Shown piece by piece: positions 4,992 through 36,560 of a DNA stretch of 64,000 nt. Position numbers and translations under genes: made by a program. Below the pieces are notes generated by a model. The model saw nothing but the letters and a program-made list of their open reading frames with translations, made no database searches and was not told the DNA's origin. Source of the DNA: Dictyophora rubrovolvata (lineage: Eukaryota; Basidiomycota; Agaricomycetes; Phallales; Phallaceae). Location: NCBI GenBank assembly GCA_029959195.1, contig CP114124.1, positions 1,178,001-1,242,000 on the forward strand, given 5' to 3'. Every line of letters starts with the position of its first letter. Position 1 is the first letter of the stretch.

Positions 4992-7141
4992 ATGCGAATA
5001 CTGACTTGGAATGTTGTAAGCTTTATGAACCCCCTCTTGGGAATTCACCCTCTTATGAACCTTTAGAATGGAATTAGAACCTTACCTCAATATCATCCGT
5101 ATGTCGAGTCACTTATCCTTTCCTCACACATTGCGCTCATGGGGCATGATTACTCTCCAGCTGGAATTCTTTAAAAACCTCAGATGCTATCCTGGACGAA
5201 CTTAAAGCCGATATAATATGTTTTCAAGGTCTGTTTTTTGTTCGTTTTCTACGGAAGCGACACTGTCTGAAAGAAACCATTTCTTAAAGAGATGAAAACG
5301 CAGCGCAACCTATTGCCAAAATGCTTTCCACTTCCCAAGAAATACGACTCATTTCTGTCTTTCCCTCTTAATAAGGGAGGATATAGTGGCGTCGCGGTAT
5401 ACACAAAAACTCGTTCTACGGCGCCTCTAAAAGCTGAAGAAGGTTTGACCGGAAAGCTACAACCAAAGCCGCCGTTTGATACCACTGAACGAATATCATC
5501 ATCTTACCCTCTACTCGCCGATCTACCTATCTACCCCGAAGACGACGGGTCCAAACTATCCAGCCTGATAGACTTGGACTCCGAGGGACGAACTCTGATG
5601 CTAGATCTCGGTCTCTTCGTTCTTATAAACGTTTATTGTCCGGCGGAAACATCAGAAACGCGTCTTCCGTACAAGATGAATTTTCACGTACTTCTCCAGG
5701 AAAGAGTCCGCAAACTGATTGAAGAAGAAAAGAGACAGGTTATTGTCGTAGGAGATATCAACGCCGCCGCTGCGCCGATCGATCATTGCGATGGAAACCT
5801 TCCGAGTAATTTTACAACGTTTTGGGAGAGACCACCACGTGCTTGGTTTAAAAACTGGCTGTTCCCTCTAGGTCCTATGGTTGATGTTGTACGGAAATCA
5901 TGGCCCGATCGAAAGGGAATGTACACATGTAGGTTATGCAAAATTGGTTGAAAATGTTTCAGCTCTCAAAAAAGATGCAAATTGGGCTACAGGCTGGAAT
6001 ACTCGAATATCCGCACGTGATTCCAATTATGGAAGCAGGGTGGATTATATTCTCTTGACAGAGGGTCTTCTTCCGTGGGTGAGATGTGGTGATATCCAGC
6101 CTTCGATAAAGGGTTCAGACCATTGCCCGGTTTTTATTGATCTATACGATGAAATACGTTTGGAATCTGGTGAAACCCTTACTCTGAAAGATGCGATGCA
6201 GTATGACGTAGCAAACCGGCGTGCTCCGCGAATTGCAGCTAGGTTTTGGGACGAATACAAACAAAAGAATTTGTCGTCGTTTTTCGTGTCGAAAAAGAAG
6301 AACGAGTATTCATCTTCTTCTGGGTCCAGTCCATCGACTACTCCGCCAGAGGACGTTCAGAAGAAAACTCTCACGACGAAGGTAGAAACTACTATGGAGA
6401 TTGAAACGGCGGATCCAGTGCAATTGTCATCTCAAGAACATTTATCATTACCTTCTTCGAGTTCTACCTCCACACTAGCGAGTTCTCAGACGACGACAAC
6501 TGTCAAGCCGCATCACAAAAGGAGTCGAGACGACCAAAAAGATGAATCCAAGCGGAAAAAGCAAAAGATTAGCCAAGCGAAAATCTCATCATTCTTTATA
6601 AAGGATGGTGGAAAGTCGTCATCATTGTCGTCAGTGCCTTCCTTCAAGGTTGAAAACGAGGTTATTAGCATTGACGAAGCTGAACCGTCCGAGCGTCAGA
6701 TCGAGGAAGACCGGTTGTTAGCCTTGCAGTTGTCGCAGTGGGAAGAAAATCTCGATGTTGCTGTCGAATCTACCAGTACCTCGTCTTCGGCGCCGTTGAA
6801 TTCCCAGAGTAAGGCCGCGTGGAGTGAGATGCTGGCACCCATTCAACCTCCCAGATGTGATGTCCACAGCGAGCTTTGTAAGGAATGGACCGTCAATAAA
6901 CCAGGTCCGAATAAAGGCAAAACATTCTTTCTCTGTTCACGGTGCGACAAATTTATCTTATGGTTGTTTTCTTTTGAACTTCAGCTTATTCTTCGTTAGA
7001 CCTGTAGGGCCAGGTTATGACAAAGGTAGGACGGAACGACTAAGAGAAGAAGTTGATACCCGATACCGCTGCAATTATTTCAAGTGGTCGAGCGAAATCA
7101 AAAGAGAAAGTCAGAAGACAAATGTAAAACAGAAGCGGTAG
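4992..7141 (+). CDS. APN2: AP endonuclease 2 (Apn2), base-excision repair
   Basis: Six exons: 4992-5015, 5067-5098, 5161-5228, 5290-5928, 5993-6941 and 7000-7141. They sum to 1854 nt (617 aa). The start is fixed by MRILTWNV and NGIRTLPQYHPWNS, the family N-terminus. Later ExoIII-type motifs are QEMKTQRN, VVGDINAAAAPIDHCD, SNYGSRVDYILLTEG and GSDHCPVFIDL, so the nuclease core looks complete. It cleaves DNA 5' of abasic sites and trims blocked 3' ends. Two PCNA-binding (PIP-box) candidates follow, QKNLSSFF and QAKISSFF, separated by a Ser/Lys-rich linker. The C-terminus carries a zf-GRF finger split by the last intron (CSRPVGPG ... RCNYFKWSSE), as in vertebrate APE2. The gene ends only about 50 bp before the direct repeat of the A/B island. 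Confidence 0.95.
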
Positions 7142-7189
7142 TCTTGGCGGTAGTGTATTTTATATTACATTGTATATATATAAATATAT

Positions 7190-7950
7190 AGTGGCAGTGT
7201 CTCGGAAGATGGGGAAGATAATGGAGATGGTGATGACAATTATGGCGACGACAGATAGGATGAAGACGGTAAAGATAATGGAGAAGAAGACGAGAGAGAA
7301 GTAGTGATGACGATGATGATGGTAAGCCTGAAGTCTAGCTCAATAACGTGTTATATATCGTAACTCACAATGTCCACCATTCCATTGATGGAGAGGATAA
7401 TGGAGACGGAGATGACGATTATGCTGAGGACGGTATAGATGACACAGAGGGTAGAAATAATGGAGAAGTAACCGAAAGAAGCAGTGATAACGATGATAAT
7501 GGTAAGCCTGACGTCTGGCTCGATAATCTATTATATATCGAAGCTCACAATATGCCATCACTCCATCACTCCCTCTTTGCATTTATGGGACCCCTGGTCA
7601 ACATAGACGTGTCGTTATTGAGGTGATACTTGGTGAATCATCATCCTTTCATAGCACATATAGATACGTTCGCTGATATGGTGTTTGTTTGCAATTAGGT
7701 TGCAACAATTGAAGAACCTCACGCCCCGTGGATGCCCGCGGTATTAAACCTATGATGGGTTTAATTGAACGCTAAAAATGGCTATACATGTTTGAACATG
7801 GAATTTTAGATTTATCTCAACCCAATGACGAGCGGCACGGCAATGAGGGATTCACCGACCTGAATATCGTTTCAGGTTATCTTCAAACATCATTTTTGTC
7901 GTGTGCCGTAGATGTTAGTACATAAGAATGAGGCATAGACTTCTGAGCAA
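7190..7950 (+). repeat. Left direct repeat, copy of gene B 3' end and flank
   Basis: Closely resembles 12785-13545. Shared blocks include the GTCTCGGAAGATGG start of the acidic segment, GGTAAGCCTGA just before the gene B stop, TTATATATCG after it, and about 400 bp of 3' flank (TGTTTGTTTGCAATTAGG and further). The acidic coding piece with its stop context occurs twice here in tandem (about 7195-7385 and 7386-7570), with in-frame stops, so it is not a working gene. It marks the left side of the A/B island in the same orientation as the right copy. Confidence 0.8.
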
Positions 7951-8070: not shown

Positions 8071-9750
8071 TTAATCCAAAAACTCCTCTGGCCACCTTTT
8101 CACTGATTTCATCTTTTCTGTCAGCCTCTTGGCGTGCTGTTGTATCATCAGAAGGACTTTAGCCAACTTAAAGCGAATTTGGATATTGTGCTCTTCAAAG
8201 ACGTCGGAAAAATCTCTGCAGGCTAAAACTGACATAAATCCCCACTTCGAGGGGAAGTTGTTTTTGTCCCAGCTCTTGATATACGGAAAAAATGCATAAA
8301 TGAGAAGCCCATTCGAGGCGTATCCAATTCCGTAGATAATGGCATATTCGGGAATCTTATAATCCTGTAATCATATGAGTATCCTCCACTCGTCGGAAGT
8401 AAAAAATCAATACTTCAGGTTGAGGTGTCCGACCTTTCCGTGCGGGAGGTTTGTCCTGCCATTCAGTAATTAAGGACGCGATGATCATAACCAGGGACGA
8501 GTGTGCCGAAAATGCAAGCTGTGCTGCCATCGGAAGCTTGGCGGCTCTAGAATTGTTTCCATCTATAACGGGGATACGAAGTCCCATGGAGGCTTCCGAC
8601 GGGACCTGAAGACGAGCTGAATCTTGCTCTTCATGTGTTATCTTCTTTGATCCTCGAGAAACTCGCTTTTTTGTTTCTCCAAGAGCAGTAACTGGATACA
8701 AATCATAATTTAGGCGTTTTACTGGGATAGTTCCGCGTCTAATTCTAGCCATGTAATCGGGTTTTGGATGAGATCCGAAGCAGAGCAGTTCGTCTCGGAA
8801 GGAAAGCTTGACATTCCTGGACATATCATAAACTAATGATGGGTAGAAGATTCAGATATGGGGACTTACGAGGTTGTTTCACAACCTGGGACATTAAAAA
8901 AACCACTTAGAGGAGTACCATGCAAACGTTCTACTTCTAATTCAGATTTAGGGCCCAGACCTGCCTGCATTATAAAGGTTGGTAAAGCTAATAGGTTGGT
9001 GAGACTCCATGCAATCCCACCACCTTCAAGGTTTTGGTTATTCATGTTGAAAATGTTTGAGACAGGGAACTCAGCAGCCTGTATGTCTTTCTGAGGACGC
9101 AACTTGACATAATGCTGGTTGGGATCATGTGTACTCAGAATAGTTCGGAGAGCTTGGCGCCAAAGAGCTTCGTCGTCTTTGGAAGATACTGAAATTGAAG
9201 ACTACAAAAACAATGAACACTTCTTAACAATCACAATTTAAAGCTCTAATGCAAACCCCTTCAGGTGTAAACCATTCTGCCGGAAGGCTAAACGCGTGGT
9301 GTGGTTCCGACTCAGAGTCTTGGTCTTCCTTTGGTTCAAATAATTTAACTAGCTTGTTTAGGAGGTTTCTGTGGCTAATATTTCCTGTAGCAGCCAAAGC
9401 CAGATCATCAGCAGCCGACGCCTGAAATGACCAGTCGTAATACCGCTCGAGTTCTTGTGTCGTTACATTACTGAAGTACATCATATTGAACTTCAGCACA
9501 TCTCATGGTCTACGGTGGAACAAAGTAGCAACCTAGCTGTGATACTGGACCCTGATTGTGTATTAGGATCACCGCTTGCTCCTTTCTTCCGGGATCCAGT
9601 GTTGAAAGGGATTCCATATCGCTTCAGCCACAGCGTCAACCGACTTGGAATCGGAGCTGCTGGTCCTGCTTGTTCGTGTTCCGTTCGTGGCTGCTCAGTA
9701 CTCGGTCTTTGGATTTCAACTTTAGGTATCGCTTGTTTAGCAGGAGGCAT
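8071..9750 (-). CDS. Gene A: uncharacterised protein, divergent partner of gene B
   Basis: Start MPPAKQAIPKVEIQRP at 9750, stop at 8071. Exons recovered include 9750 to about 9531, about 9475 to 9240, an exon ending with the block SDEALWR-like to VPGCETTS (about 9200-8866), 8824 to about 8418, and about 8362 to 8071. Notable blocks are SRLTLWLKRYGIPFNTG near the N-terminus and DYKIPEYAIIYGIGYASNG with IYAFFPYIKSW near the C-terminus. No known domain, signal peptide or clear membrane segment is recognised. The gene is about 450 residues and looks intact. A decayed second copy lies on the plus strand at 30590-31071 and 31890-32115, which supports its being a real gene with an evolutionary history. 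Exon limits are approximate and the function is unknown. Confidence 0.6.
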
Positions 9751-9902
9751 AATGAATGCCGCTGAAGGAGTTGCGGTGAGGAAAGTCCTTATATGTCATG
9801 TATCTCAGCCCATGATTTCCATTTGAGTTACAATCGATATCGATGGTTTAGTAATATACGTCTTGTTGGCTGCTCTGCTGGAGCGGCTCAGGGTCATGCA
9901 CG
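9751..9902. promoter_or_regulatory. Shared bidirectional promoter of genes A and B
   Basis: Only 152 bp separate the two divergent start codons, so both promoters must overlap here. It holds a palindromic ATCGATATCGAT core around 9833. Its relic is recognisable at about 30590-30680 (TGTCGATTG, then AAGATACATGACAT), so this spacer travelled with the pair. Confidence 0.5.
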
Positions 9903-12900
9903 ATGTGTGACACAGTCGTGACGACCTTTGGCATGGTTCAAAACTTCGACATCGCAGCAAATCGAAGGTAAGTAATCACATTATTGGTTAAGGTAAAAAC
10001 TGACTGTCTTGATCAGGACTTATCCGCATTCGCAAATTTGGAAAGCATACTCAAGATACCCTTATGACTATCCAAGAGGGACGTCCGACGCTATTAAACA
10101 AGCCCTATATGAGTATAAAGCCTATATGGGTTCTTTCACACATAATCTCTTAATTCCTGAGGAATGGAAGGTAGATTGAGCATTAAGCATCCAAATTATT
10201 CATTTCATGATGATATCAGACTTTACTCGAGGATAGTGACAAACTTTCCACCATCCTTTGCAAATCCCTGAAGAGATACTTTGACTACCTTTCACACTTA
10301 TCCGAATATTGGGATCGTCCATATTTTTCGTATGCCCATACGACCAAGATTGAAAAACTTGCATTCCCAAAGCCACAAATCATCCCTGACGCATTGGATC
10401 CCTTGAAATACTACACAAATTTGTCTAAAGCATTACTACACATTTTTTCATATCCTGGCTTGACTACATGTCGCTGTGAAATGGACGCTGATCGGAATAT
10501 CTCGTTACTTCTATTCACCTTATTTGACTGGTTTGGGATTGTCCAGCCCGGGTATGGTTTTCATATTTCGCCATTGACACATTCTGTTACAGCCCTTTTA
10601 GATCTTCAAAGCATAAGATAATTGACTCCATCCGCGTTTTTAAACGGAACTCTCACCCACGATGGACAAGATATGGGCTGGTTCCGATCGTTTTCTTTCC
10701 CCAACGCTTACACCCTATCGGCGAACAAAGAGCGATTGCAGAAGCCCTACAAAACAATGAAGTTAAGGACAATCGGGTTCCAGAGACTCTGGTCCCTCTA
10801 CTGGCGGCCGTCGAACCAACATTAACATTATTACTCGGCCGCGCGATCATTAATTGGAAAGAAAAACGAAAAACTTCTAATGTAGGATGCGTGTTTGTTA
10901 AATCAAAGTGATTGAGAGACTCACTATTTTTAGGAAAGATTTGCGCTTCCTGAATGGTTATTTATTCATGGGATAGTTTATGACGCTATTCGAATTGATT
11001 TTTATACATTTTTGCCAAAAATCCTGGAGTGCGACGATGATGGCGGACCGTTGAAGTGGGAATTTATCTGCATTCCAATTCCCTTTGGATTCGATATTTT
11101 TTATTCGCGGGGTGTTTTGAAACGTGCTAGTTATGCTGCTGTTTTGTTGGCAATTCAACGGCACACAAATAGGATTTGCCTAGCACTTGATGATGTGGAC
11201 CTCCCTGCCATCTCGCCAGTCGTTTCTGAGTCGGATACGCTCGAGGACCCCAAGCCCTGTGAAGAAGAGCTGTTTACAGATGACAAAATAGAGAATGTCA
11301 CTGCTAATATGCAAAACGAGGCCGCCTCTCAATGTCTGTTAGATTGCATTCGTCGCACAAGTCTGAATTCATTTCAGTAAGTGACAACTGATCCTTCTCG
11401 AACATCCCCTGAAATAGCCAAGGAAGTTGTGCATCTAACTGGTCTCTTTTCGAGAGTGTTTCCCAAATGCAGGCGCTAGGCCCTCAAAAAGATTTTCTCC
11501 TCAGCTTCATTAACAATTGGCAATCTCGGTCCGGGAAGATTTCGCTCCCTGAAGATTGGTTGTCGGCAACTGCTTCGGAAAAATATCAAGTTGTATCTAA
11601 TTACAAGCCTAAAAATTCTCATTTCTGATCATTGCTACAGCCATATATGGACCCGTGGGATTTATTCCAAATTCTGCCCAAGCTAATACTGCAAACATGG
11701 GTATCCCATCGAAAAAAAAGTTTTATCCCGCTAACGGAAGAAGAGTTGCGAGCGCGGCATTTTGATCCTCAATCATTCTCCCCTGATTTTTACCTCTCAA
11801 CTCCTGCCCGCAAAGAACGAAGCAATGTCTATAAGATTCCGATGCAAAACCTCCTACCTGATACCATTCATTGTTTAGAACATTTTAAAGACGTGTTTCA
11901 GTACCTATCTCACGAACTCGACGCCAAGATGGCTATATCGAGTCCTTTTATGTGCACGCCGGGGTGCTGGCTAAAATAGTATGGTCTTTTAACTTGGTCA
12001 AAACATCATCCTGACCCATATCCCAGTGATATTGAGTCACGCTTTCCGACTGCGCTAAGTACTGATTCTTCCCCTGTCGATTTTGCGCTGCTCCTACATC
12101 CCATTCAAACCGTCCCAATCGAAATGGTGCCACTTACACCCGATGTGAATCTTCGAGCAACAATTCTGAATCCAGCTTTGGTAGTGGGTATTCAAGGACC
12201 AGTCGCATGGCCTGAAGAATTGTCGTGCTCGCCGGCATCGTCGCATTTACGACCGAAAAACAAATCTGAAGCGTTGCGTCAATTAGCCAAAGCGATCGAA
12301 CCAAGCTTGAAGACTCATATTATAAATTGGCAATTGCGTTTTGAACAAGGACTCGTTCCTACGAAAGACCTACCGTCATGGTTCATGTTATTTGGGTTGT
12401 TATACGACGCGAAAGAAGTCAACGTTGTTGCGCACATACCTTATATGAATGAGAACTCTCAATACTCATTCATCTCGTGTATTGTAGACACCATATCTTT
12501 TCCGCCAGTCAATGGATCCTCTAAAGTGACAGACTCGTGGTTCCTGGACCGATTTCGTGTGGGACTAGCCCTGTTGTCATTGCAAAAGCACGCGTTCCAT
12601 ATGGCCGGCCTTTGGGAATGCGTGATATGGCCTAACGAACTAGTTTCTTGGGAGGAGATTTTGGAACGGGAGTATCTTGGGCCTGTGCTGACACCATCCG
12701 AGAGAGGATACATGGTGGAACCTCATCCTATGTCGGAACTGTACCGGGAATTGCACGGATCTGATGAGACTCTTGGCGAGTATAGTGATAACGTCTCGGA
12801 AGATGGAGATGACAATTATGACAAGGATGATAGTGCTAATGACGACGGCGGAGATGACGAAGATGGTAGTGATAATGGAGAAAGAGACGGTATCGGTAAT

Positions 12901-13077
12901 GGAGAAAAAGAGGGTATCGATGATAGAGAAAAAGACGATAGCGATAATGGGGAAGAAGACGGTATCGATAATGGGGAAAAAGACGGTATCGATAATGGAC
13001 AAGAAGACGGTGGGCATAATAGAAGTGATGACGAGAGAAGCAGTGATGACGATGATAATGGTAAGCCTGAAGTTTAG
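9903..13077 (+). CDS. Gene B: uncharacterised 947-residue protein with acidic repeat tail
   Basis: Eight exons fit: 9903-9967, 10017-10170, 10220-10551, 10593-10881, 10934-11376, 11418-11589, 11641-11978 and 12027-13077. They sum to 2844 nt. A TAG at 11977-11979 is removed because a 48 nt intron starts inside it (TA|GTATGG ... CTGAC ... CCCAG). No known domain is recognised. Conserved-looking blocks are FPQRLHPIGEQRA, ALPEWLFIHGIVYDAIRIDF, FICIPIPFGFDIFYSRGV and HMAGLWECVIWPNELVSWEE. The last 110 residues are an acidic repeat of DNGEKDGI-like units. A relic of the C-terminal third lies inverted at 29915-30575, and the 3' end is duplicated at 7190-7950. Intact-looking here; the function is unknown. 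Confidence 0.65.
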
Positions 13078-13545
13078 CTCGATAACGTATTATATATCGG
13101 AGCTCACTATATACCATCATTCCATTTACCCCTCTTTGCATATATGGGACATATCATTTCACGATCAACACAGACTCTCTCGTTATCGAGGAGGTGAAGC
13201 GTCTTGATTACTTACGTACTTGGTGAATTCCCATCATCTTTTCACAGTACATAAACACGTTTGCTGACATTGTGTTTGTTTGCAATTAGGTTGCAACGAT
13301 CGAAGAACTTCACGCTCGTGGATACCCATGATATTAGACCTGAAAATCTTATGATGGGTTTGGTTGAAAACTAAAACCGCCTATGTGTTTGAACATGTAA
13401 TTGAGTTAGATCCATCCCCACTCAATGACGAGCAGCACGGCAACTAGTAATTCATCGACCTGAATGTTACTTTTAAACATCGTTTTCGTCGTATGCCGCA
13501 GATAGCATACAACAATAAGACATAGACTACAATATACGTGCATTC
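12785..13545 (+). repeat. Right direct repeat and acidic simple-sequence tract of gene B
   Basis: Right-hand copy of the 7190-7950 repeat. Its first 290 bp encode the acidic tail of gene B, a degenerate 18-24 bp repeat (GATAATGGGGAAAAAGACGG-like) that has expanded relative to the left copy. The remainder is 3' flank. Together with the left copy it brackets the A/B pair in direct orientation. From 13546 to 13842 I see nothing beyond the MED4 5' flank. Confidence 0.8.
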
Positions 13546-29914: not shown

Positions 29915-30575
29915 ATCTCACATCCATTATCTTCTCCATCTGCCGAGACAAGATCACTATACTCGTCAAGAGTCTCATCAGATCCGTGCAATTTCCGATA
30001 CAGTTCCGACTAGAATGAGATTCCACCATGTGTCCTCTCCGACGGCGTTAGCACAGGCCCAAGATACTCCCGTTCTAATATCTCCTCCCAAGGAATCAGC
30101 TCGTTAGGCCATACCACGCATTCCCAAAGTCCGGCCATATAGAACGCGTGCTTTTGCAATGACAACAGGGCTCGATACGGGAGGTAGCATCAGCTTGAGT
30201 GGTCGGTCCAGGAACCACTGGCACGAATCTGTCACCTTAGAGGATCCACTGACTAGTGGAAAAGATAGTGTTGATGATACACGAAATGAATGAGTATTGA
30301 GAGTTCTCATTCATATAAGGTATGTGCGCAACAACGTTGACTTTTTCCGCGTCGTATAAGTTAACCCAAATAACATGAACCATGACGGTAAGTCTTTCGT
30401 TGGAACGAGTCCTTGTTCAAAACGCAACTGCCAATTTATAAGAGGAGCCTTCAAGCTTGGTTCGATCGCCTTGGCTAATTGACGCAACGCTTCCGATTTG
30501 TCTTTCGGTCGTATTTAGATGTGACGATGCTGACGAGCACGCCAATTCGTCAGGCCATGCGGCAGGTCCTTGAGT
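29915..30575 (-). pseudogene. Relic of gene B, C-terminal third (inverted copy)
   Basis: Minus-strand DNA matches gene B from about 12186 to 12800. Recognisable blocks are AHIPYMNENSQYSFISCI, GSSKVTDS, GNAWYGLTS (for CVIWPNELVS) and the GATCTGATGAGACTCTTG stretch near the end. Frameshifts, a TAA in the equivalent of LRFEQ and further stops rule out function. At 30575 homology stops and jumps to the A/B spacer, so gene B before codon 600 has been deleted here. Confidence 0.8.
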
Positions 30576-31071
30576 ATATCAATACACAATTGATGTCGAT
30601 TGTAATGAAAGAAATAAATGGCCTTTATCGGCCAAGATACATGACATAGAAGGATTCTTCTCCACTATGCCTCCCGCTATATAAGCGATACCTAAAATCG
30701 CAATCCAAAGATCAAGTGCCATACTGAGCTGCCACTGACGAACAGAACACAGACAGGCGACACAAGCGGCACCAGCAGCTCAGGCTCCGAGTTCGTTGAC
30801 GCAGTGGCTTAAGCAGCATGGCATTCCCTTCACCACTGGACGCCAGAAGAAAGGAACGAGTGCAAGTTGTGGCTTAGATTTCCGTCCAAAACGTCAACTC
30901 CGATATCCTACTTCTTGTTCAAGTATGCTCCGTCTCGTAATGGTCCAGCATCACAGCTAGGCAAGTGCTTTTCCTCTGTTGTAGGCTCTGAGTTATGCTG
31001 AAGTTCCATATGATGTACATCAACAATGTAACAACAGCTGAACTTGAGAGGCATCACAACGGGTCATTCAC
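30576..31071 (+). pseudogene. Relic of gene A 5' half with promoter (inverted copy)
   Basis: The A/B spacer relic (30590-30680) leads into ATGCCTCCCGCTATATAAGC at about 30681, aligning with gene A's start but with a TAA at codon 6. The stretch LTQWLKQHGIPFTTG matches LTLWLKRYGIPFNTG of gene A. The first gene A intron is also retained (TGCTGAAGTTC.ATATGATGTAC). Similarity ends at CGGGTCATT near 31070, where the helicase relic begins. Confidence 0.8.
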
Positions 31072-31403
31072 TAAAAGCTAAAGGAGCAGCAAGTTCGATC
31101 GGGTTCTCACGGCATAAATCACTACTGTAACAGACTGTACTAGGTTTGGCACAAGACCGAGGGTCCTGACCACTGGATAAGATGCAAAAGCAACTATGAC
31201 TGATTTCTTTATCATTGCATCCTAGTGCTGTTGCCTCCGCTGACACAAGAATACATAATTTTCCATTCTTAGAATCATCCCACATCATTGTCTTCGCTTG
31301 TTCTGAAATTCCGGCAGAGAAAAAACATATACAGCTCCGATAGCTTGGGAGGCACTTGTGGAATTCATAGACAAACGTTTCGCATAGACGTGGTACGCCC
31401 AAG
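31064..31403 (-). pseudogene. Relic of RecQ-like helicase, C-terminal motifs
   Basis: A minus-strand frame reads GVPRLCETFVYEFHKCLPSY, then CICFFSAGISEQAKTMMWDD, then LCILVSAEATALGCNDKEIS and LSSGQDPRS. These resemble helicase motifs IV to VI of RecQ-like enzymes abundant in Agaricomycetes. The motif VI region (usually QRxGRxxR) is garbled, and the frame carries no start context or motif I. It lies inside the gene A relic and faces away from its own N-terminal half. Confidence 0.6.
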
Positions 31404-31875
31404 TAAATAGGGTCTTCGGAATCTCTGCTGGTGAGATATTGATTGACAAATCCTTTGTTTTTTTTTGGTGATTAAAGTTCGCGGATAGTATAAAAGAGAT
31501 CTAATTCTCCATTCACTCTGCGTTGGAAGGATGAAAACTTCATGCGTCGAATAGGAGGGATCTTCATTGACGAAGCGCACCCGTATCCACGAATGGGGAC
31601 TGCAAGATTTTCGAAAGGAGTACTTACTGCTCAGAATTCAAAGAACTTGGGTTTTATTCCACTAATTGCTTGTTCAGCTAGTACAACGTCAACAGAAACG
31701 TTCAATGCCGTTTGGGAAAGCTGTAGTACAATTCGGGCACCGTCCATTTTGGTGTTTAGATGTTGGGACAATTCGACCAGTCCCTAATATAAATTCAATT
31801 GAATTGAATCGTCAGCCAATAACATGCCTCGGAAGCAATTTTTGTCTGATATGGTAGACGGAGTAATCAATGAGT
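31404..31875 (+). pseudogene. Relic of RecQ-like helicase, DEAH-box part, frameshifted
   Basis: In one frame the DNA reads GGIFIDEAH (motif II) and later FIPLIACSASTTSTETFNAV (motif III). Two other frames give IHEWGLQDFRKEY and FGHRPFWCLDVGTIRP, blocks that follow in such helicases. At least three frameshifts are needed to join them. Orientation is opposite to the C-terminal half at 31064-31403, so the gene was also inverted internally. Confidence 0.6.
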
Positions 31876-31889
31876 ATTAAATACAAAAT

Positions 31890-32115
31890 CTGAACTGTAT
31901 CCAGTCGTTTCTCTTGCAGAAACAAAAAGCTGGATTCTTCGAATATTGAAAAAACGACAGCCTGCTTGAAGAGCAGAACTCAATTTGTACCCCAAGTCCC
32001 ATCAGACGGAACATTCCCCGTTCTAGGCTAAACAACTTTCCTGGGGCCATGACAGCACAGCTTGCATTTTTGGCATACCTATCGCTGGTTACAACCATCG
32101 CATCTTCAGGCTTAT
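31890..32115 (+). pseudogene. Relic of gene A, middle part (resumes after helicase relic)
   Basis: Plus-strand DNA resembles gene A about 8690 down to 8470: GCAGAAACAAAAAGC, CAAGTCCCATCAGACGGA and then AMTAQLAFLAYLSLVTTIAS, matching PMAAQLAFSAHSSLVMIIAS. Several frameshifts and stops are present. Similarity stops at about 32115. Confidence 0.7.
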
Positions 32116-32288
32116 AATTATTGAATATTGAATGGTCTCACCTTCCTTCCACATTGGTATCGAAAGGCTGATTTCTATCTACTCTAGACGAGTCGAACGT
32201 GAATGGCATATTTACATGTAAACACTATGAGTGCATTCAGACTCATTGTTTCCGTTATCATTACTGAAACTACAAAGAAAAAAATAAA

Positions 32289-32373
32289 TCTCCGGAACCG
32301 GGTTCGAACCAGTGACATTCAGATATAAGTTATCCATTACAGTCTGACGCTCTTCCAACTGAGCTACCCAGAG
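32289..32373 (-). tRNA. tRNA-Tyr (GTA) with short intron
   Basis: The minus strand folds as a cloverleaf. Acceptor CTCTGGG pairs with TCCGGAG (C1-G72, the eukaryotic tRNA-Tyr identity pair). D-arm GCTC..GAGC, anticodon stem TCAGA/TCTGA and T-arm ACTGG TTCGAAC CCGGT are present. Anticodon loop CTGTAA holds GTA. A 12 nt intron (TGGATAACTTAT) sits one base 3' of the anticodon, the canonical position. It lies about 175 bp beyond the end of the gene A relic. Confidence 0.9.
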
Positions 32374-34566: not shown

Positions 34567-35481
34567 TCACATCGTCCCCGCGGTATCCGTTGGTGATACA
34601 CTACTGTCTTCTGGTACACCGTTGGGGCCTTGCGAAAAAATAATAAAAGCATCGATGAGACCGGGAACAATGAACGGATGTGTCATCTCTCGTCGAATGT
34701 CCTTCTCTAGCTTTTCAGCTTGTAATCTTAAATGATGCTCCGACGCCAGCTCTTGTTTGAAATTCTCAATTTCCTTCTGATGGGCAGCCTTCAAATTTAG
34801 CATTTCGCCTTTCTTCGCGTTCCACTCCTGAACTAACGTTTTAGATCGGAATTTCTCGGCCTCCAAAGCTTTCTCAGTCGACGTTATTTTCTGCTCCCGA
34901 TTCTCTAATGTAGCTCGAAGTTCAGATATTGTGTCTTGAAGTGGCTTCTGCTTTTGCTTCAAATCTGCATAATGTTGAAGGAGCACTAAATATTTGGCCA
35001 GAGGCTGAGAAAAACCGAAATCACTAAGGGAAACGCGACGGGACGGGTGAAAATAACAAAATACCACAGATTCAACGCCTTGACCGGGTTCTGCAACTTT
35101 AAGCCTTTTCACAAGTGGACCAACATCTTTCTCATCATCCGAGAGTGTACGCTTCCTTTGGGACGGAGCTGGCGACGGTAGCGTCTCACTTTCGTTTGAG
35201 GGTTGAGACGGACGAACCGTTGTATGCGTTCTTGCATTACATCAAATTAGACGTACTGATTATGCTTTGAGATTCTTCCAAGGACAAACTTACTTTGCAT
35301 CGGCTCCCGGTGGGATGTGGAGGGTAGGCTGGGTTTGAGCAACCTTCATTGGAACCGAAGATGGAGTGGAAATGGATCTAGCTTGTAAGCTAGAATTGGC
35401 CTTAGGAGGGATCTGGCTGGTAGGAGGGCTGACATGGACAGGATGAGTAGCTGTCCGGGGGAAAAAGTGAGGACAGCGCAC
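34567..35481 (-). CDS. Coiled-coil protein, 5' end unresolved in a tandem repeat array
   Basis: Stops at 34567 (PTDTAGTM). The main exon includes LVKRLKVAEPGQGVES and a coiled coil (LKQKQKPLQDTISELRATL, LVQEWNAKKGEMLNLKAAHQ) of about 100 residues, then EMTHPFIVPGLIDAFIIF. Upstream exons are PSPAPSQRKRTLSDDEK (near 35160) and a Pro/Ser-rich exon inside repeat unit 1 (THPVHVSPPTSQIPPKANSS, 35290-35445). The true start codon lies further upstream, possibly at 36635 (MSLVSKELADPKC), with the repeat array in between. No domain beyond the coiled coil is recognised. Confidence 0.55.
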
Positions 35482-36560
35482 CGTGACGGGGTTACGGGAA
35501 TACCAACTTGCTGTCTAACAAGACTTCAGGTCCTACATTAACGATACCCAGTAGTGTATGCCATCCAAAACTTACGGGTTCAGGGTTTGCTCTGGAGTTG
35601 AAGTGGCTCTATCTTGTAAGCTAGAATTGGCCTTAGGAGGGGCCTGGTTGATAGGAGAAACCTGGCTGGTAAGAGGGCTGACATGGGTAAGGTGATTAGC
35701 TGTCGGGTAGAAAAAGTGAGAGAATACCGTACCGTGACAGGGTTATGGGAATACCAACTTGTTGCCTAACAAGATTTCAGACCCTACATTAATGAAACCC
35801 TGTAGCGTATGCCATCAAGAACTCACGGAATCAGGGTTTGCTTTGGAGTGGAAGTAGTTCTATCTTGTAAGCTAGAACTGGCCTTGGGGGGGACCTGACT
35901 AGGAGGACTAACATGGACAAGATGATTAGCTGTCCGAGAAAAAAAGCGAGAGGACAGCGCACCGTGGCGGGGTTATGGGAATACCAGCTTGTTGTCTAAC
36001 AAGATTTCAGACCCTACATCAACGATGACCAGTAGTGTATGCCATCAAGAACTCACGGGATCGGGGTTTGCTTTACAGTAGAAGTGGTTCTATCTCGTAA
36101 GTTATAATTGGCCTTAGGAGGGGCCTGACTAGTAGGAGGGCTGACATGGGCAAGATGATTAGCTGTCCGGGAGAGAAGCGAGAGGACAGCGCACCGTGGC
36201 GGGGTTATGGGAATACCAGCTTGTTGCCTAACAGGATTTCAGACCCTACATTAAGTAGTGTATGCCATCAGGAACTTACGGAATCAGGGTTTGCTTTGGA
36301 GTGGAAGTAATTCTATCTCGTAAGTTATAATTGGCCTTAGGAGGGACCTGGCCAGTAGGAGGGACCTGACTAGTAGGAGGACATGGACAAGATGATTAAT
36401 GATTAGTTGTCCGGAGAAAAAAGCGAGAGGACACCGCACCATGACGGGGTTATGGGAACACCAATTTGCTGTCTAGCAAGATTTTAGACCTTTCATTAAC
36501 AATACCCCGTAGCGTATGCCATCAAAAACTCACGGAATCAGAGTTTGCCTTTTGTTTTTG
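35290..36560 (-). repeat. Tandem array of about five 235 bp exon-like units
   Basis: The unit recurs near 35290, 35570, 35825, 36055 and 36280, with a partial one at 36530. Each carries, on the minus strand, a pyrimidine-rich acceptor (..CGGACAG), about 103 nt of Pro/Ser-rich coding-like sequence (PPKANSSLQDRTTSTP-like) and a donor GTGAGTTCTTGATGGC, followed by intron-like sequence (TACAGGG.., TTTCAGACC). Splice sites are conserved better than some codons. 103 nt is not a multiple of three, so joining successive units would shift frame; at most one is likely used per transcript. Confidence 0.75.

Follow-up and report, generated by a model that had tools for sequence, protein, structure and literature searches.

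PD-(D/E)XK nucleases have a core fold of alpha-beta-beta-beta-alpha-beta, and their typical active-site residues are P-D...(D/E)-x-K. MUS81-EME1 is a heterodimer in which a catalytic nuclease subunit is joined by a paralogous inactive partner. The HD1/HD2 mating-type pairs of basidiomycetes are head-to-head genes for unlike, related proteins; they are present as several diverged units per genome and share a short intergenic region. Here, a head-to-head pair of genes, gene A and gene B, is described from Dictyophora rubrovolvata (assembly GCA_029959195.1). The pair is located in a stretch of 64,000 nucleotides (the window), which corresponds to C8:1178001-1242000 (contig CP114124.1) in a 28.2-Mb genome of 11 contigs. 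Coordinates below are those of the window unless prefixed with a contig name. Judged from the sequence, this is a real, conserved, and duplicated divergent pair, and A and B are paralogs, apparently two ancient members of one fast-evolving fungal protein family.

The locus resembles these systems in part. The proposal made here for A and B, in which a catalytic subunit is paired with an inactive paralog, is a functional analogy to MUS81-EME1. Here, the putative partner has two signature-less domains, and the two genes are divergent neighbors. The arrangement of A and B is that of HD1/HD2 pairs, but A and B are without a homeodomain, and they are found on C8 and C10, whereas homeobox matches are found on C3 and C7. 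In the titles and abstract openings of the papers listed by literature searches, such a gene pair is not mentioned.

Gene A (8071..9750, minus strand) encodes 486 amino acids in five exons (9750-9533, 9470-9257, 9201-8870, 8816-8414, and 8364-8071). Gene B (9933..13077, plus strand) encodes 938 amino acids in eight exons (9933-9967, 10017-10170, 10220-10551, 10593-10881, 10934-11376, 11418-11592, 11641-11978, and 12027-13077), and contains two A-like C-terminal domains and an acidic repetitive tail. In the splicing models, the introns of both genes are GT-AG and 41-62 bp in length, and both frames are open. The stop of A is exactly at 8071 and that of B exactly at 13077, as in the coordinates of a preliminary description, in which the genes were called long, multi-exon, and intact-looking. 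A search with A of a database of 5.8 billion proteins, in which the 7,996 candidates with the most shared words were scored, revealed among these candidates one homolog, P0001. With B, for which the candidate list was likewise capped, no homolog was seen among the candidates scored. P0001 (480 amino acids) is 56% identical to A with 99% coverage (E-value 1.9e-150), and spans all four exon joins without interruption. Because it reads through all four intron positions, it supports the splice model of A independently. Its source contig is 2,873 bases in length, and P0001 was probably derived from a transcript. The introns of gene B are at matching places in four related copies on C10; one of these is frameshifted, and the frames of the other three stay open beyond residue 800. 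A disabling in-frame stop near 11977 was considered for B and rejected; it falls at the 48-bp GT-AG intron 11979-12026, and the C10 copies have introns at the corresponding position. The last exon of B includes a 24-bp repeat (12860-13011) encoding part of the acidic D/G/N/E tail. The acidic tails of the C10 copies of B differ from that of the window.

The two genes had been considered unrelated in the preliminary description. Profile comparison and BLASTP contradict this. Profiles were built from four A and four B proteins, and 15 column-shuffled controls were used. A from residue 74 matches B unit 1 with a score of 100.5 over 303 columns, while the largest score of the 15 shuffles is 20.0. 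The C-terminal domain of A (exons 4-5; 8071..8815, minus strand) scores 78.1 against B domain 1 (exon 4 and part of exon 5; 10593..11200, plus strand; shuffle maximum 17.0) and 36.7 against B domain 2 (exon 8; 12027..12660, plus strand; shuffle maximum 16.6). The two domains of B score 40.6 against each other (shuffle maximum 19.2). By BLASTP, the C-terminal part of A matches residues 258-341 of B (4e-10), with a weaker match at residues 691-782. An early query with the A domain, which included some intron-read residues, also matches exon 5 of B in the genome (6e-7). Based on the profile scores, B unit 1 resembles A over its full length when the C-terminal domain anchors the alignment. The resemblance of B unit 2 to A is demonstrated only in its C-terminal domain.

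The C-terminal domain of A is putatively PD-(D/E)XK-like. P-D is seen at residues 274-275 and E-x-K at residues 302-304, followed by an invariant Q. Both P-D and E-x-K, the residues of PD-(D/E)XK nucleases, are invariant in all four A proteins compared (the window, two C10 copies, and P0001 from the search outside the genome). When A and B are aligned jointly, all four copies of B domain 1 lack both the D after P and E-x-K, and retain the adjoining strand P-x-V-F-[LF] that the C10 copies of A also have. E-x-K is also absent from B domain 2 in all four copies, where the placement around E-x-K varies with alignment settings. Such a pattern of residues would be expected of a nuclease paired with an inactive paralog.

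The spacer shared by A and B is a putative bidirectional promoter. It is 182 bp between the two start codons (9751..9932), not 152 bp as reported initially; the shorter figure results from starting B at the ATG at 9903, which runs into a stop. At 9833..9855 (plus strand), 82 nt from the start codon of A and 77 nt from that of B, the spacer contains the 23-bp element ATCGATATCGATGGTTTAGTAAT, which includes a 12-bp palindrome. When the window spacer was compared with three spacers of C10, ATCGATATCGATGGYTTAGTAAT was the only stretch common to all. Its orientation with respect to the two genes is constant, and it lies ~68-112 nt upstream of the start of A (approximate where A is a fragment). With up to three mismatches, the element is seen at four places in 28.2 Mb, and all four are A/B spacers; a reversed-pattern control gave 0. 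In the window it has one match, compared with 0 in 100 shuffles. The 13-bp core occurs seven times in the genome, three times in A/B spacers, and the other four occurrences are without the second half of the element. When the element is masked, the window spacer scores 16-20 against the C10 spacers, compared with a shuffled mean of ~18. The C10 spacers resemble one another outside the element too. One of them has two mismatches in the element, both inside the palindrome, and its A is a fragment (one case). A conserved 23-bp element is thus seen to be private to A/B spacers, based on these genome matches, and it may serve as a bidirectional control site. A sigma-70 scan of the spacer gave no match; the sigma-70 model is not apt for a fungus.

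Genome searches were performed with DNA and four protein queries, and all copy counts are lower bounds. Relatives of A and B are seen at two loci, the window and an array of roughly 50 kb on C10 (~C10:1572-1622 kb), and as one short decayed remnant of B on C1, matched by DNA. Places were grouped by hand, with tail-only remnants of B (7187-7941 in the window and two on C10) excluded. There are at least seven A-like places (the window gene, a decayed copy in the window, and five on C10) and at least nine B-like places (the window gene, the decayed copy, six on C10, and one on C1). Five of the seven A-like places are head-to-head with B, including one fragment of A and the decayed window copy. 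The copy A4 is ~3 kb from its divergent B, and a frame that is presumably APH-like lies in between. A truncated B lies tail-to-tail with the copy A3, which is in pieces across ~4.7 kb of repeat-rich sequence. On C10, the full-length copies of B are 82-90% identical in DNA, and the matches between copies of A are 72-84% identical. The left and the right A/B groups of the C10 array are separated by a region (~C10:1597-1600 kb) with frames that presumably belong to an RNA14/CSTF77-type gene.

A is fully intact only at the window gene. The copy A1 on C10 is broken close to the end by an insert of 561 bp (C10:1577556-1578116) flanked by a short direct repeat, and the copy A6 has a frame change near its end; the damage of both is confined to about the last 30-45 residues. 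All 11 contigs carry matches to the insert, 40 scored in total, with identities of 80-100%. Its start with TG and the flanking direct repeat allow no more than a guess that it is like a long terminal repeat. The frame of B is open past residue 800 at four of nine places (the window gene, B1, B5b, and B6). B1 stops at 893, and no stop is reached within the stretches extracted for B5b and B6. B5a is frameshifted.

The preliminary description had noticed a copy of the pair, including the spacer, at 29.9-32.1 kb. An inverted, decayed copy is indeed present at 29926..32147 (minus strand), although it was not kept whole. Only the last exon of B is matched, at 30576-29926 with 85% DNA identity. The 86-bp remnant of the spacer (30577-30662) represents the A-proximal part, with 69% identity over spacer bases 28-106. 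It retains 17 of the 23 bases of the element, which is similar to the rest of the spacer. The head of A follows from 30663 with 75% identity, and pieces of A are scattered to ~32.1 kb. A tRNA gene (32289-32373, minus strand) is found ~140 bp past the outer edge of this copy. Two features had been overlooked in the window and beyond: the paralogous array on C10, and a second, decayed 3' tail of B with its 3' flank at 7187..7941 (plus strand). The latter is a direct repeat of ~12780-13528. It is located on the A side of the pair in the same orientation as the end of B itself, and its main stretch (7429-7941) is 72% identical to the end region of B.

These copies bear on how the pair spread. The decayed tail in direct repeat with the end of B is a trace left by an older tandem unit. 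On C10, the units A5/B5b and A6/B6 (~C10:1612.9-1622.3 kb) are in direct order and have homologous 3' flanks; the C10 units were compared for flank homology only. The C10 array mixes tandem and inverted units, as does the window locus. Recurrent local duplication, which had been one of the two initial suggestions, is supported by these copies and fits the spread of the pair. The pair probably multiplies via unequal crossing-over and inverted segmental duplication, and not by transposition. The movement of two unrelated genes together was puzzling, and this puzzle dissolves because A and B are paralogs in a duplicating array.

The other initial suggestion was a mobile unit; such an element might carry A and B as cargo or as its own nuclease. 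The presence of several copies, one of them inverted, and the putative nuclease in A would agree with it. The search for shared terminal motifs at copy edges, proposed as a check, covered the window pair and revealed no terminal inverted repeat there (the best minus-strand matches are 10 bp, E-value 1.6). The flanking direct repeat at the left edge is the leftover tandem tail of B. Copies were found at two loci and as one remnant, in contrast to the dispersed 561-bp insert in A1. A mobile unit is not supported, because terminal repeats are lacking at the window pair and the copies are confined; the chance that the pair is a mobile element is remote.

Both proteins are under purifying selection. 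The ratio of nonsynonymous to synonymous substitution rates (dN/dS) was calculated by the Nei-Gojobori method for three sequences of A (the window, A1, and A6, with A1 and A6 truncated ahead of the damaged part) and four of B (the window, B1, B5b, and B6), with B5a and all fragments excluded. Between loci, dN/dS is 0.13-0.16 for B and 0.22-0.24 for A, at a saturated dS of 1.7-2.2. Within C10, dN/dS is 0.23-0.29 at dS of 0.23-0.66. Between loci, dN is 0.47-0.48 for A and 0.26-0.27 for B, that is, the A protein diverges faster.

The reading preferred here combines a putative nuclease A and its pseudo-nuclease partner B, which share one bidirectional promoter and were expanded by duplication. As a whole, this reading is given an even chance. 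A would be catalytically active as a PD-(D/E)XK-type nuclease; this part is tentative and its probability is set slightly short of even. B, with its two domain copies without the E-x-K signature, might bind A and restrain or direct it, and whether A and B form a complex is about evenly balanced. The palindromic element might be a protein-binding site that couples the expression of A and B, perhaps bound by the pair itself. A more specific scenario can be imagined, in which a sequence-specific nuclease A and a tandem pseudo-nuclease paralog B constitute a two-gene eukaryotic system recognizing the 12-bp palindrome in their own promoter, as a self-regulating, restriction-style or killer-style module that spreads within chromosomes by duplication. 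This scenario is very unlikely.

Several results weigh against the preferred reading. P-D...E-x-K is a short, weak motif and may arise by chance. Within the PD-(D/E)XK superfamily, A is taken to resemble above all PDDEXK_12, a fungal family of Pfam. No Pfam match up to E 10 was obtained with P0001, with A of the window, or with the A domain as read in A1 and A6. A search of the genome with PDDEXK_12 also gave no match; it is uninformative because the controls were equally silent. B domain 2 keeps the signature partly, as D-F is aligned to the P-D of A in all four copies; in B5a, which is outside the joint alignment, the D of D-F reads N. The N-terminal parts of A and B alone score 24.9, 21.7, and 18.7, near the controls of 18.4, 20.3, and 15.9. 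Structure prediction, which had been proposed as a check together with profile searches, gave unusable AlphaFold models, with a mean predicted local distance difference test (pLDDT) score of 42.6 for exon 8 of B and 32.6 for P0001 with three window exon pieces. A fold search with the low-confidence model of exon 8 revealed nothing at E 0.001, a result without meaning for so poor a model.

In the profile searches, the observation that neither gene has a recognizable domain is borne out. No Pfam family is above the cut-off for B without its acidic tail. Sub-threshold Pfam matches to AAA_35 (E 0.21) and Gallidermin (E 0.069 and 0.096, the latter for B) were judged to be chance. With A, no family was found in NCBIfam and PHROGs, and a plasmid collection gave no match. 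Sequence searches of PDB gave nothing significant: one insignificant match to a ribosomal protein, and none for two other profiles. With P0001 as the one homolog, the A/B family appears to be without any named relative and undescribed as far as searched. In the orphan fungal pair, a single family has divided into two members, of which one bears the signature and the other does not. A 23-bp promoter element of their own links the two over a deep divergence, and the pair is a clear case that lends itself to testing. If the roles of nuclease and partner are true, a new nuclease/pseudo-nuclease system would be added, and its expansion and uneven decay, in which A is lost more often than B, would be legible from one genome.

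The uneven decay might be explained differently if the pair is a selfish toxin-antidote (killer) pair. A would be a self-harming nuclease and B the antidote, and the loss of A would be tolerated while that of B would not. The intactness of A at one of seven places compared with the open frames of B at four of nine, and the faster divergence of the A protein, are as expected for such a pair. The numbers are small, however, A1 and A6 are damaged only near their ends, and A is under purifying selection as well. This explanation is unlikely. A non-self recognition or regulatory pair comparable to HD1/HD2 would consist of divergent, unlike paralogs whose products dimerize and which were multiplied and diversified. 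Several head-to-head units of such paralogs and an element private to the pair are consistent with this, but neither A nor B contains a homeodomain, and the homeobox matches (four on C3 and one on C7) and the STE3 matches (C11) are elsewhere. Such a pair is considered quite unlikely. A third view requires neither nuclease nor partnership: A and B could be ordinary duplicated genes that share a short spacer by chance. The absence of any domain assignment would agree with it, whereas it would not account for two divergent paralogs that have stayed paired at dS ~2 and share a conserved element of their own. This view is highly improbable.

A mating-type locus was also considered for the pair itself and rejected, given the positions of the homeobox and STE3 matches. 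Two groups of homeobox matches are ~50 kb apart at C3:2064-2114 kb, and 17 exon-wise matches to the STE3 receptor are seen at C11:864-1013 kb. These are likely the mating loci of the genome. Together with the short spliceosomal introns, the homeobox and STE3 matches indicate that the genome is that of a basidiomycete. Directly left of the decayed B tail in the window (5271-6996), an endonuclease/exonuclease/phosphatase gene is present in pieces; it includes a GRF zinc finger and resembles AP endonuclease 2. A tandem array of ~4.8 copies of a 230-bp unit with 78% matches is present at 35408-36548.

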